The notes under the pieces: generated by a model | What the model was told of the DNA's origin: nothing | Databases searched by the model: none | Seen by the model: the letters and a program-made list of their open reading frames with translations, nothing else | In this document: in pieces, positions 5,129-27,486 of the stretch | How positions within the stretch are numbered: position 1 is the stretch's first letter | Layout: every line of letters starts with the position of its first letter | IMG/VR virus record: IMGVR_UViG_3300030382_000241 | Location: 1-28,421 of that record | Origin: a virus | DNA length: 28,421 nt | Strand: one strand, 5' to 3' | Program-made: the position numbers and the translations under genes

Positions 5129-5446
5129 TTAAAATGGTGTATTATCCGAAGTCATAAATTCATCACTTTCAGCATCACTTTGATTTGTAAAATGATAGCC
5201 GTCTATATTGTGATAATATTTCCCTTTGTATTCTCTTGAATAAACATTACACAAAATCGCTACTGTCATTCCCTCTTGTAACTTATTGAGTTTATCCACT
5301 TTATCACCAAAAGCATTGACACAAACTATATTATTAAAGTCCTCACCCGTATCTATTACAACTGATTGCTTTTGCCACTCCTTTCCTGCTTTGCTTGTGC
5401 CTGTTTCTAAGTCAAGCATTTTTACTAATTTACCACGTACTTCCAT
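5129..5446 (-). CDS. DUF3127 SSB-like OB-fold protein
   Basis: A 105-residue protein of the DUF3127 type, a Bacteroidota family with an OB fold related to single-stranded DNA-binding protein. The pattern is VRGKLVKMLDLETGTSKAGK followed by WQKQSVVIDT and an alternating strand region to GYHF. The C-terminus is acidic and ends DNTPF, like the D-D-x-P-F tip by which SSB recruits partners. The gene is preceded by an A-rich leader with no Shine-Dalgarno sequence. It lies between the 54-aa gene and the DnaA-like gene. The likely role is coating single-stranded DNA in replication or recombination; strongly suggested but not proven. Confidence 0.8.
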   Translation of the reverse strand: MEVRGKLVKMLDLETGTSKAGKEWQKQSVVIDTGEDFNNIVCVNAFGDKVDKLNKLQEGMTVAILCNVYSREYKGKYYHNIDGYHFTNQSDAESDEFMTSDNTPF

Positions 5447-5636: not shown

Positions 5637-6032
5637 TTATTTTTGATTATTACTGTTTTTAAAGTCCTCGCTTTCATCTTCGCCAAATACTCCCAATTCA
5701 TAGAAGCCCGTTAGCTTCAGAACCGCCCTGCTCATTGCTCGTTTCTCCGCCATCTCCATTACGTACCAACTATTGCAGTTTCCGTCTTTAAACCCTCCTT
5801 TTAAAGCTGAGCCAAACGTTTGTATTGACGCTTCACCTTTTAAGGCATTTGCTTTTACTACACAAAAATCTCTTTCGCAATTTATTACTTCATAGTCAAT
5901 AGTTATGTTCTCTATTGCTTGGATTTTATCTATGCCGCTTCTTGTGATGATGACATAGTGTTGATGCTTGAAAATGTCATCTTTGTCTAGTCCGTAGTGA
6001 TGATACTTTTCTTTAATTTTTTCCGTTCTCAT
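5637..6032 (-). CDS. Possible recombination / annealing-type protein
   Basis: A 131-residue protein I recognise only as a type often found beside SSB-like genes in Bacteroidota phages. Visible features are an N-terminal strand region YVIITRSGIDKIQAIENITI, a central CVVKANALKGEASIQTFGSA, and the helix MAEKRAMSRAVLKLTGFYEL (93-112) followed by an acidic tail. The pattern of substrate-like strands followed by a M-A-E-K-R-A helix recalls single-strand annealing or Rad52/Erf-like proteins, where a similar E-x-x-A-x-x-R-A helix occurs, but the similarity is too weak to name. It is the first larger gene of the SSB/replication series. Confidence 0.55.
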   Translation of the reverse strand: MRTEKIKEKYHHYGLDKDDIFKHQHYVIITRSGIDKIQAIENITIDYEVINCERDFCVVKANALKGEASIQTFGSALKGGFKDGNCNSWYVMEMAEKRAMSRAVLKLTGFYELGVFGEDESEDFKNSNNQK

Positions 6033-12737: not shown

Positions 12738-12785
12738 AATTCCTTTGTCTAATATATATATAGAAAAACTCTGTTTTTATTTGCC

Positions 12786-12816
12786 TTTAAAAAGAAAAGA
12801 GGGCTAAAAAGCCCTC
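12786..12816 (-). terminator. Intrinsic terminator after the tail-tube-like gene
   Basis: On the minus strand a perfect 7-bp stem GAGGGCT / AGCCCTC with a TTTT loop is followed by TTTTCTTTTT. This is a textbook Rho-independent terminator for leftward transcription. It splits the highly expressed capsid and tail-tube-like genes from the portal part of the module. Confidence 0.85.
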
Positions 12817-12849
12817 CAATCAAGAAATATATTGAAAACTAAAAGAATA

Positions 12850-15135: not shown

Positions 15136-15187
15136 AGGTTCTTTTTTAATATAATAGAATAGTTATTTATTTATTTGATTTTTAGAT

Positions 15188-25105: not shown

Positions 25106-25346
25106 GTTTTACTTTATTTTGCGACTCTAAGTCTGTTTCATAACTCAACCATGTAAACGCTTCTAATATGTTGAGCTTTGTTATTTGTTCTAATTTTGAA
25201 ATATCAGCATTACATAACCGATACATCAATCCAAAGTATCCCCACTTTTCTGCAAAAGATTCGGAGGCAATTGCGTTTTCATTTCCTTCAGCCGATCCAT
25301 CGAAAATGATTCCAAAGTCTTTGACAATACCCTCCCTAAATTGCAA
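25089..25346 (-). CDS. Tail chaperone, frameshifted C-terminal part
   Basis: An 85-residue frame that has no ATG at its start and overlaps the 214-aa chaperone gene by 121 bases. Reading on from nine T residues in the -1 frame gives LQFREGIVKDFG, then a helical region with SFAEKWGYFGLMYRLCNADI and LNILEAFTWLSYETDLES. The design (K-W-G-x-x helix plus a short helix repeat) is that of the T part of gpG-gpT tail assembly chaperones. The likely product is a fusion of 175 residues from the 0 frame plus these 85 (about 260 in all). The only alternative in-frame start is TTG at the slip site. Confidence 0.65.
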   Translation of the reverse strand: MQFREGIVKDFGIIFDGSAEGNENAIASESFAEKWGYFGLMYRLCNADISKLEQITKLNILEAFTWLSYETDLESQNKVKHGSKQ

Positions 25347-25870
25347 AAAAAAACCAATGCACTTTGCACTTGTTCTGCTGACATCTTCTTCATTTCTTCC
25401 GTCCTTATGGCAATATCCCCATCATACGCTTCAATAGTATAAACTCCGCTTTCTGTTTCTTCAACTATTGGTCTATAAAGAACTGCCATCACTTGTGGCA
25501 TATTCTTTTCAATTCCATCTTTGATAAAAGTCTCTAGATCTGACCACTCACCGAGAGTCATGCTATTTAGATCTGGCATATAGCCGTATCTTTTTTCGTT
25601 TACTTCTATTATACCTTTTAAAGAACTATCTTGCTCCTGTTGTATCTCAGCTACCTTCTCCATTATAATAGCAATGTCTCTTATTTCCAACTGCTTTATT
25701 AAGTCTTTTGGAATATTTGATAATGCTGCTATTGTTTCTTCCGCTTCTTTTGTTTTCGTTCCCTCTTTAAAGTCAATTAGTTTTAGCCACTTTTCTAGCG
25801 TTACATCTGACCACTTACTTATTAGCTTGAACTCTTTTACTTTGCCCTTCTTCTTGATTTTAACCTTCAT
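25226..25870 (-). CDS. Tail assembly chaperone, G-like part
   Basis: A 214-residue protein, first gene of the tail module. The N-terminus is basic with FKLISKWSDVTLEKWLKLID, followed by TIAALSNIPKDLIKQLEI, a helix-rich region, GYMPDLNSMTLGEWSDLETF and then KNMPQVMAVLYRPIV (about 122-136). Towards the end, MSAEQVQSALVFFCNLGRVL marks the frameshift site (after residue 175). The 0-frame tail ends RLKEMKTQLPPNLLQKSG. Such proteins bind the tape measure during tail assembly. The family is recognised from memory of Bacteroidota phages, together with the frameshift architecture; it lies before the other tail genes. Confidence 0.7.
   Translation of the reverse strand: MKVKIKKKGKVKEFKLISKWSDVTLEKWLKLIDFKEGTKTKEAEETIAALSNIPKDLIKQLEIRDIAIIMEKVAEIQQEQDSSLKGIIEVNEKRYGYMPDLNSMTLGEWSDLETFIKDGIEKNMPQVMAVLYRPIVEETESGVYTIEAYDGDIAIRTEEMKKMSAEQVQSALVFFCNLGRVLSKTLESFSMDRLKEMKTQLPPNLLQKSGDTLD
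25344..25355 (-). promoter_or_regulatory. Probable -1 ribosomal frameshift site
   Basis: On the minus strand GG, nine T residues, then G. In the 0 frame it reads GTT TTT TTT TGC; slipping back one base gives TTT TTG CAA and enters the 85-aa frame. Homopolymer U runs are good slippery sites and tail chaperones commonly use -1 frameshifting here. A homopolymer length error is the main alternative. Confidence 0.6.
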
Positions 25871-25923
25871 ACATTAATATAATAGAAAATGTTGTTATTT
25901 AGTTTAATTGAAAATATATAGTG

Positions 25924-25931
25924 TATATTTG
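25924..25931 (+). promoter_or_regulatory. Plus-strand -7 element TATATTTG
   Basis: TATATTTG fits the Bacteroidota TAnnTTTG -7 consensus exactly. No TTG lies at the ideal 17-23 base spacing upstream (nearest at 13 and 29), so the -33 box is weak. It points right, opposite to all genes, and would start transcription near 25938 toward a terminator. Confidence 0.45.
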
Positions 25932-25937
25932 CCCGTT

Positions 25938-25995
25938 TTTGTATTCATTTTAGTTTTAAAGGGTGTGGGTTTAATTAATCTGCACCCTTTTTTTT
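25938..25995 (+). ncRNA. Candidate ~58-nt plus-strand small RNA
   Basis: The interval from the expected start of the plus-strand promoter to the end of the T run would give an RNA of about 58 bases: an unpaired U-rich 5' part, then a terminator hairpin. No protein frame of use is present. It is antisense only to the terminase stop codon. Existence depends on the promoter being active; not shown. Confidence 0.35.
25958..25995 (+). terminator. Plus-strand intrinsic terminator
   Basis: AAAGGGTG (25958-25965) pairs perfectly with CACCCTTT (25983-25990), a G-U pair can extend it, and eight T residues end it. The T tract is on the plus strand; on the minus strand the stem is followed by AAAACTAAAA, so it would not end the terminase transcript. 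The T run overlaps the terminase stop codon. Confidence 0.7.
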
Positions 25996-27190
25996 ATTGC
26001 ACAAAATACTTACCTGCATTTGGATTGTCTAAGTGATATATAACGTTATATCTTATTCCATCAATAGCATGATTCCAATTGTCTATGTATAATTTTGAAC
26101 CTTTGTCTTGAAAAGCATAGTTGTTTAATTCTTTAGCAATATTCGTACTCTCAGGAGTTATAACTAAATGAAAGTCTTGCATTCTAGTTATTCCGCTTTC
26201 AATAGTTCCTTTTTTTACAGGTTTAATGTTTACTCCTAAATGCCTAAGATCTGCAATAAGACGCGGTTCTGCACTATCAGCAATTATCAGTTTATCGCCT
26301 ACTTTGTCTAATATCACTTTTGCAAGTTCATGCGACTTCAACCCGTTCCTGTATATATGTTCTTTTAAATAGATTCTTTGTTTCTTCTTATCTATTGCCA
26401 CTTCAGTAAGACTATCAGGATCAATACTAAATCCAAAGTCCATTCCACAAGAAGTTTGAAGCCCATCAGGATTAAATTCACCAATACTCCAATTATCAAA
26501 CACGACACCTTCGGCACGTTCTAACCAACCCCCCATAATCTTATGCTGATACTTTTTAAAGTTATTATGCTTTATGCTCTTAATACGCTCTAGGAAGCTG
26601 CTAGAGAGGTTTTCTTTGTTGTCTAGGTATGTACTATGCATATAGCATATATTGTCCTTAGAGCCGTTAAAACCTGCCTCTACGCCTTTATCCTCAAAGA
26701 AGCGTTTATATATCCAATGTTCTTTAGTGACAGGGTTTAATATTAAGACAACTCTATTCTGTATGTCCTTTTCTCTTATACTTAGATCAATTGTATCAAA
26801 TATATCTTCATCAATAAGTTCTTCTGCTTCATCTAATACCCAACAGCTAATGCCCTGTAAAGACTTTAAACTTGCAGTTTGATTTCCTGCTGATGTCTTA
26901 ATACCTCTAAATAGAATGTCAGATTGATTACTTGTATTTAATACTTCTGCTTTGTTAATACTAAATATTTCATCAAAACCTAATAGCCCTATCTTTTCTA
27001 AGAACTCGGGAATGATTGATAGGTGTGCTGATACCATTGTGTATCTCGTAAACAATACCCTAATGTTTCTTGACATTGTGAGTAGTGTTAAAAAGACTGT
27101 AACGGCAAAAGACTTACCAGAACCCCTACCGCCTGTTATTATGTAATAACGACAGTCAGACTCAAATAAGGGATTGTATTTTTTACTCAG
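25994..27190 (-). CDS. terL: Terminase large subunit with non-ATG start
   Basis: The ATPase-nuclease that packages DNA, about 398 residues. Walker A GGRGSGKS (20-27) lies upstream of the first ATG (ending at 27076), so a shorter annotation would lose it. Walker B is CWVLDEAE (116-123). The nuclease acidic residues are in GMDFGFSIDP (Asp251), IADSAEPRL (Asp305) and NHAIDGIRY (Asp377). The last two motifs are typical of PBSX-type terminases. The frame is open only to 27199 and holds no ATG, GTG or TTG before Walker A. The CTG ending at 27190, which overlaps the small subunit stop as CTGAGTAA, is the best start; CTG at 27196 or ATA at 27193 are possible. Confidence 0.88.
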   Translation of the reverse strand: MSKKYNPLFESDCRYYIITGGRGSGKSFAVTVFLTLLTMSRNIRVLFTRYTMVSAHLSIIPEFLEKIGLLGFDEIFSINKAEVLNTSNQSDILFRGIKTSAGNQTASLKSLQGISCWVLDEAEELIDEDIFDTIDLSIREKDIQNRVVLILNPVTKEHWIYKRFFEDKGVEAGFNGSKDNICYMHSTYLDNKENLSSSFLERIKSIKHNNFKKYQHKIMGGWLERAEGVVFDNWSIGEFNPDGLQTSCGMDFGFSIDPDSLTEVAIDKKKQRIYLKEHIYRNGLKSHELAKVILDKVGDKLIIADSAEPRLIADLRHLGVNIKPVKKGTIESGITRMQDFHLVITPESTNIAKELNNYAFQDKGSKLYIDNWNHAIDGIRYNVIYHLDNPNAGKYFVQ

Positions 27191-27443
27191 TATCAGTTTC
27201 TATAAATGTAATAAGTGGCATATTAAGACTCTCCTCATTTGATGTAACATCTACTCTTTGCTGTGGTCTTCCATAAAAGTATTCGAAGAATAACTTAACT
27301 GCCCATTGTTCTTTTTTTTCTAATCCTTTTTGTAATGACTCTAAAGCCATTGCATTCATAGGTGTAAGATTCTCTATTAGCTTTTGTTCTTCTGCTTTTG
27401 CCTTTCTACCTGCCCCTTCTCTTTTCCCTCCGTGTGTATTCAT
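27183..27443 (-). CDS. terS: Terminase small subunit-like protein
   Basis: An 86-residue protein placed directly before terL. The N-terminus GGKREGAGRKAKAEEQKLIE (5-24) is a common start of DNA-binding phage proteins and small terminases. The rest is helical with KEQWAVKLFFEYFYGRPQQR (44-63). It is shorter than most small subunits (140 residues or more), so it may be a minimal version with only part of the DNA-binding and oligomer domain. It overlaps terL by 8 bases, suggesting coupled translation. Its role is DNA recognition for packaging; inferred from position and N-terminus. Confidence 0.65.
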   Translation of the reverse strand: MNTHGGKREGAGRKAKAEEQKLIENLTPMNAMALESLQKGLEKKEQWAVKLFFEYFYGRPQQRVDVTSNEESLNMPLITFIETDTE

Positions 27444-27486
27444 TTTGAAATATTTTGATTAATCAAGTTGTATTATATAATAGAAA

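Follow-up and report, generated by a model that had tools for sequence, protein, structure and literature searches.

A putative small-RNA gene on the strand opposite terL in phages related to Nonlabens phages P12024S/L

Introduction

The window analysed here is a stretch of viral DNA of 28,421 nucleotides whose long genes lie on the minus strand. The one-sided layout described in the first-pass annotation extends to ten relatives of 24-30 kb, in which the long genes occupy almost entirely one strand. The gap behind the large terminase gene holds a promoter box, a hairpin and a T tract that all point rightward. Do these elements form a gene for a phage small RNA, and by what mechanism might such an RNA act? 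Phage-encoded small RNAs are a known kind of molecule (PMC12197685). The features of the gap and its borders are as follows.

25226-25870, minus strand: next gene, matching phrog_32199, without known function
25876-25887, minus strand: TTCTATTATATT, candidate phage promoter motif before gene 25226-25870, divergent from the plus-strand promoter, recognised by motif recurrence
25898-25906, plus strand: TTTAGTTTA, -33-region element of the plus-strand promoter, found also in relatives without the unit
25924-25931, plus strand: TATATTTG, predicted -7 promoter box of the Bacteroidetes sigma-A type (TAnnTTTG / TAHHTTTG), from the sequence
25935-25995, plus strand: predicted small RNA of about 58-60 nt, its start placed 4-5 nt after the box and its end inside the T tract
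25935-25957, plus strand: predicted unpaired U-rich leader of 23 nt, from the fold
25958-25995, plus strand: intrinsic terminator, a 14-bp stem with G-U pairs and an eight-T tract overlapping the terL stop, from the fold and strand comparison
25994-27076, minus strand: terL, large terminase subunit (PHROG terminase large subunit, E about 1e-31), upstream neighbour of the unit

Results

The gap and its neighbours

Among isolates, the closest TerL proteins are those of Nonlabens phages P12024S/L (63% identity). In these phages terL and the next gene abut and the gap is absent, and no unit-bearing relative was found among isolates. The unit had been placed between terminase and tail genes. The terL match bears out the terminase side, but the tail side is not established because gene 25226-25870 has no known function.

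The TTCTATTATATT element before that gene is kept in relatives both with and without the unit. TTCTATTATATW stands directly before three minus-strand genes of the window (25876-25887, 15148-15159 and 27474-27485, all minus strand). Ten relatives carry it 3-6 times per genome, in nearly every case on the strand of the genes, 1-32 nt ahead of an ATG. By sequence, TTCTATTATATW is a candidate phage-specific promoter. Two further elements were seen elsewhere in the window. The palindrome TTGATTAATCAA, just upstream of 27443 (minus strand), belongs to the leader of the small gene that precedes terL; it is kept in many relatives and is a possible operator. Gap 12738-12849 holds GAGGGCTTTTTAGCCCTC and then TTTTCTTTTT (12799-12816, minus strand), probably a gene-strand terminator.

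A predicted host-type promoter on the plus strand

The plus-strand box TATATTTG at 25924-25931 is followed 27 bases on by an 8-bp stem with eight Ts, exactly as first annotated. The refined -7 box of F. johnsoniae is TAHHTTTG (PMC6847099). Because the -7 box of F. psychrophilum spans -12 to -5 (PMC9723704), transcription is predicted to start at about 25935/25936. The consensus is that of these two species. Across 58 distinct relatives the TATATTTG-type box is near-invariant; it is followed directly by C in 48/58, and G occupies the predicted start in 38/58. The unit therefore appears to carry a promoter of its own.

The weak -33 box, the main doubt raised at first, was confirmed in the window, where no TTG lies at a spacing of 17-23 from the -7 box. 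Yet TTG does stand at this spacing in 29/58 distinct relatives, where shuffled upstream sequence gives 10.3 +/- 3.0. The T-rich TTTAGTTTA element also occurs in relatives without the unit and so belongs at least partly to the element of the minus-strand neighbour.

A predicted terminator on the same strand

The 8-bp stem AAAGGGTG/CACCCTTT begins at 25958, 27 bases 3' of the box, and the hairpin occupies 25958-25990. The eight Ts are 25988-25995, the last two opposite the TerL stop TAA (25994-25996). Folding of plus-strand RNA 25935-25995 gave a single stem, extended to 14 bp by G-U pairs (-18.1 kcal/mol, z -5.0), and none of 200 shuffled sequences folded as well. On the minus strand the hairpin forms no more than 8 bp (-9.3 kcal/mol), and because AAAACTAA comes next, that strand lacks a T tract. 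The hairpin is thus not the terminase terminator, as had been argued. With its stem and T tract on the plus strand only, the unit has its own intrinsic terminator on the same strand as the promoter.

A descriptor of box, stem and T tract found exactly one site when both strands of the window were scanned, and the combination was absent from 60 dinucleotide shuffles of the window. The shuffles together with the relatives described below rule out a chance origin. No open reading frame of 50 amino acids or more lies on the plus strand of the gap, so that a moron protein was not found there. The window matched no Rfam covariance model, and seven relatives gave none either at E up to 0.5.

Discrete presence and absence among relatives

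Over 500 related viral contigs were found. A first set of 80 TerL loci from viral contigs grew with three more queries and one pattern to 235 distinct loci, of which 164 belong to the window's clade. Box and terminator are both present in 72/164 and both absent in 85/164, where the gap measures 19-44 nt. In the remaining loci the contig stops inside the gap (L188, L129, L253) or opposite-strand genes have been inserted there; two of the latter (L009, L159) still show a box. No complete half-unit, that is box or terminator alone, was present among the 164 loci, the apparent cases being contigs that end in the gap. Stem and box are thus conserved together across related phages, as the small-RNA proposal had predicted.

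On 0.93 Mb of clade sequence the descriptor matched 51 times in the gap, each time on the opposite strand and never on the same strand, and twice elsewhere; one of these two is the small-RNA unit itself, displaced by an inserted gene. At least 15 changes are needed to place presence and absence of the unit on the TerL tree. Since about half of the relatives lack it, the unit is not essential. Some empty gaps retain a T run beside the stop codon (e.g. L134, L123), which looks like a relic of deletion.

The same gap holds other insertions. Small opposite-strand genes are inserted after terL in L008/L009, L065, L078 and L159, with TAnnTTTG-like promoters in L008 and L065. L008 has the small-RNA unit plus a separate gene with its own promoter. 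L076, L103 and L176 have a second hairpin in the interval from the unit to the terL stop; in L076 this is CCCCTTATGTTAGCAGAAATGGGG, directly after another TATATTTG. In the more distant L270 and L282 a hairpin and T run on the opposite strand adjoin the terL stop; a short hydrophobic reading frame of about 20 codons may precede them.

TerL relatives in genome contigs amounted to two phage-like contigs binned in unrelated MAGs and two distant matches; the phages are not known as prophages. The two phage-like contigs, L085 and L086 (29 kb and 36 kb, in MAGs named Euryarchaeota and Pseudooceanicola), are likely mis-binned.

Selection as RNA of the plus strand

Stability favours the plus strand in all 57 distinct hairpins and the minus strand in none. 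G-U pairs make up 122/844 pairs on the plus strand against 8/688 on the minus strand, and at least five Ts fall within eight bases after the stem in 44/57 plus-strand cases against 1/54. A stem maintained by G-U pairs on just one of the strands indicates selection as RNA of that strand.

The hairpins fall into two classes. Most units, including that of the window, have a G-rich 5' arm and a mostly small loop. This class is too variable to align for pair counts, and its stems with G-U pairs are kept in every case. The second class (17/59 distinct units) combines a C-rich 5' arm with a large loop in which TTGTCG is near-invariant. Here the structure is conserved with covariation: four of ten pairs show changes in both partners (11 cells, compared with 4.5 in shuffles), and the covariation score is 0.377 against at most 0.200 for slid-partner controls. 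A covariance model of the C-rich class found strong copies in phage contigs only at this locus. It also gave two weak matches, 36-38 nt long, in a sample of 198 genomes from the phylum taken around a Bacteroidota MAG.

Conservation of the unit exceeds that of terL third positions at short range (26/34 independent near pairs). Part of this may be explained by recent exchange. The window and L001/L002 have identical gaps despite a 12% base difference in terL, but identity continues at 98.7% through the 300 bases that follow, and exchange may account for this pair. In L004/L225 the gap, at 95% identity, stands clear of its diverged neighbours, terL at 89% and the next gene at 70%. In distant pairs identity is about 0.44 in the hairpin and about 0.75 in the promoter stretch, and hairpin and leader diverge strongly between subclades. 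Leaders of relatives remain 58-59% T.

Searches for a target

The leader was compared with the start region of every phage gene in 11 genomes. A general antisense role at such regions was rejected: in most genomes cognate leaders had no clear pairing advantage over shuffled ones when all genes were taken together. The family of window gene 5637-6032 scored best of 39 families in the first ten genomes (swap p 0.001). It was not replicated in nine new leaders (cognate -1.61, non-cognate -1.21, p 0.12), and several unit-bearing records of 26-30 kb have no match to the family. This minus-strand gene encodes 131 amino acids without known function, lies next to the gene for a single-strand DNA-binding protein (5129-5446) and has relatives in several hundred viral contigs. 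A 12-bp match of the window leader over the AUG of the gene before terL (27183-27443) was also rejected, as it is not kept in relatives with other leaders. ACGACAA, the complement of the C-rich class loop, has no recurring site in these phages outside the RNA locus itself. The proposal of a phage small RNA of about 58 nt thus stands for the unit, by co-occurrence of its parts, its single strand, G-U pairs and covariation in one class, but not for its target. Host or phage mRNA is possible.

Discussion

Most of the weight of probability falls on a genuine, selected small-RNA unit in a family of marine phages related to Nonlabens phages P12024S/L. Comparison of the sequences strongly supports a rightward unit, from promoter through leader to terminator, that would encode an RNA of about 58-60 nt; what carries this reading is conservation, strand, coupling of promoter to terminator, covariation in one class and discrete presence or absence. 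From these features we infer transcription, its timing and a base-pairing role. Host RNA polymerase with the primary sigma factor would start at about 25935 on the plus strand. The product, about 58-60 nt, would be a single-stranded U-rich leader joined to a terminator stem, and synthesis would stop at the terminase stop codon. It would be the one clear case of transcription against the prevailing strand of the genome. With a host-type promoter, the RNA would probably be produced either early in infection or during the whole of it.

Base pairing in trans ranks first among the mechanisms, and we hold it tentatively, at a little under an even chance. Pairing would most likely go through the leader or the hairpin loop, with a target that differs between subclades.

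Second comes cis-antisense action, in which the RNA, a perfect complement of the intercistronic stretch between terL and the late genes on the minus-strand mRNA, would pair with it and cause cleavage or uncoupling, in the manner of OOP RNA of lambda on cII mRNA. The unit sits exactly between the terL stop and the next gene on the opposite strand, and automatic complementarity would tolerate the sequence turnover between subclades. Such an RNA would not need the near-invariant TTGTCG loop of the C-rich class or short-range conservation above third positions, however. The next gene also has a separate candidate promoter, so an mRNA spanning the gap is not certain. We consider this mechanism possible and clearly less probable than trans pairing.

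Third, the unit might be an interference or spacing device. The plus promoter is divergent from the candidate late promoter of 25226-25870 and overlaps its upstream part; host polymerase bound there would delay the late promoter early in infection, the terminator would only shield terL from antisense transcription, and the RNA would be a by-product. Promoter and terminator are coupled and are the most conserved parts, and the plus -7 box and the minus motif lie about 40 bp apart with TTTAGTTTA common to both. Against this, 85 relatives keep the minus-strand element without the unit, and leader and loop are conserved at short range. We regard promoter interference as doubtful.

It is improbable that the unit is the remnant of an opposite-strand accessory gene, or moron, that lost its coding part and kept promoter and terminator. 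The same gap does hold opposite-strand small genes with host-type promoters in other relatives (L008/L009, L065, L078, L159), but in L008 the unit stands beside a separate gene with its own promoter. Stems kept by G-U pairs and covariation, in a unit that recurs across the clade, are unlike decay. A minus-strand hairpin at the 3' end of terL mRNA or a DNA packaging site, suggested by the location directly after terL, is very improbable given the strand asymmetry (0/57 hairpins more stable on the minus strand, T tract there in 1/54) and the absence of the hairpin in 85 relatives; a DNA recognition site would also keep its sequence between subclades, as the hairpin does not. The packaging-related role first suggested is unsupported, about half of the sampled relatives being without the unit.

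Within the small-RNA reading, one speculative extension is an RNA-only moron of marine flavobacterial phages. Gains or losses of the self-contained cassette would recur at a hot spot for insertions just after the terminase gene, its leader and loop evolving with the subclade to re-target mRNAs of the host or of rival phages early in infection. We regard this as possible but less likely than not. The gap after terL is a place where independently transcribed extra genes settle. The unit adds a promoter-to-terminator RNA family, supported by comparative genomics, in a common marine phage group, and natural presence/absence pairs among close relatives make its function directly testable.

A literature search found no small RNA reported in phages of marine flavobacteria. 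The unit would be a new RNA family, of a kind already known from other phages. OOP RNA, for instance, is 77 nt long and ends at an intrinsic terminator, and the morons of lambdoid phages are independently transcribed accessory genes. Like lambdoid morons, the unit is self-contained from promoter to terminator, lies between late genes and is sporadic; unlike them it encodes no protein, and its phages are not known as prophages. OOP is a cis-antisense RNA of lambdoid phages (PMC12197685) and, like the RNA described here, is short, has its own promoter and runs opposite neighbouring phage genes. However, OOP overlaps the cII coding region and acts on cII mRNA, whereas the present RNA would cover an intercistronic gap; phages, host and promoter type all differ. 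PreS of lambda and VpdS of VP882 are trans-acting phage small RNAs (PMC12197685), and base pairing is expected here too. Both are described as Hfq-dependent and belong to Proteobacteria hosts (PMC12197685). The independent small RNAs of F. psychrophilum (PMC9723704) come from a related group of bacteria and resemble the unit in having sigma-A TAnnTTTG promoters and in being short and noncoding. They are encoded on the host chromosome and are longer (median 176 bp).
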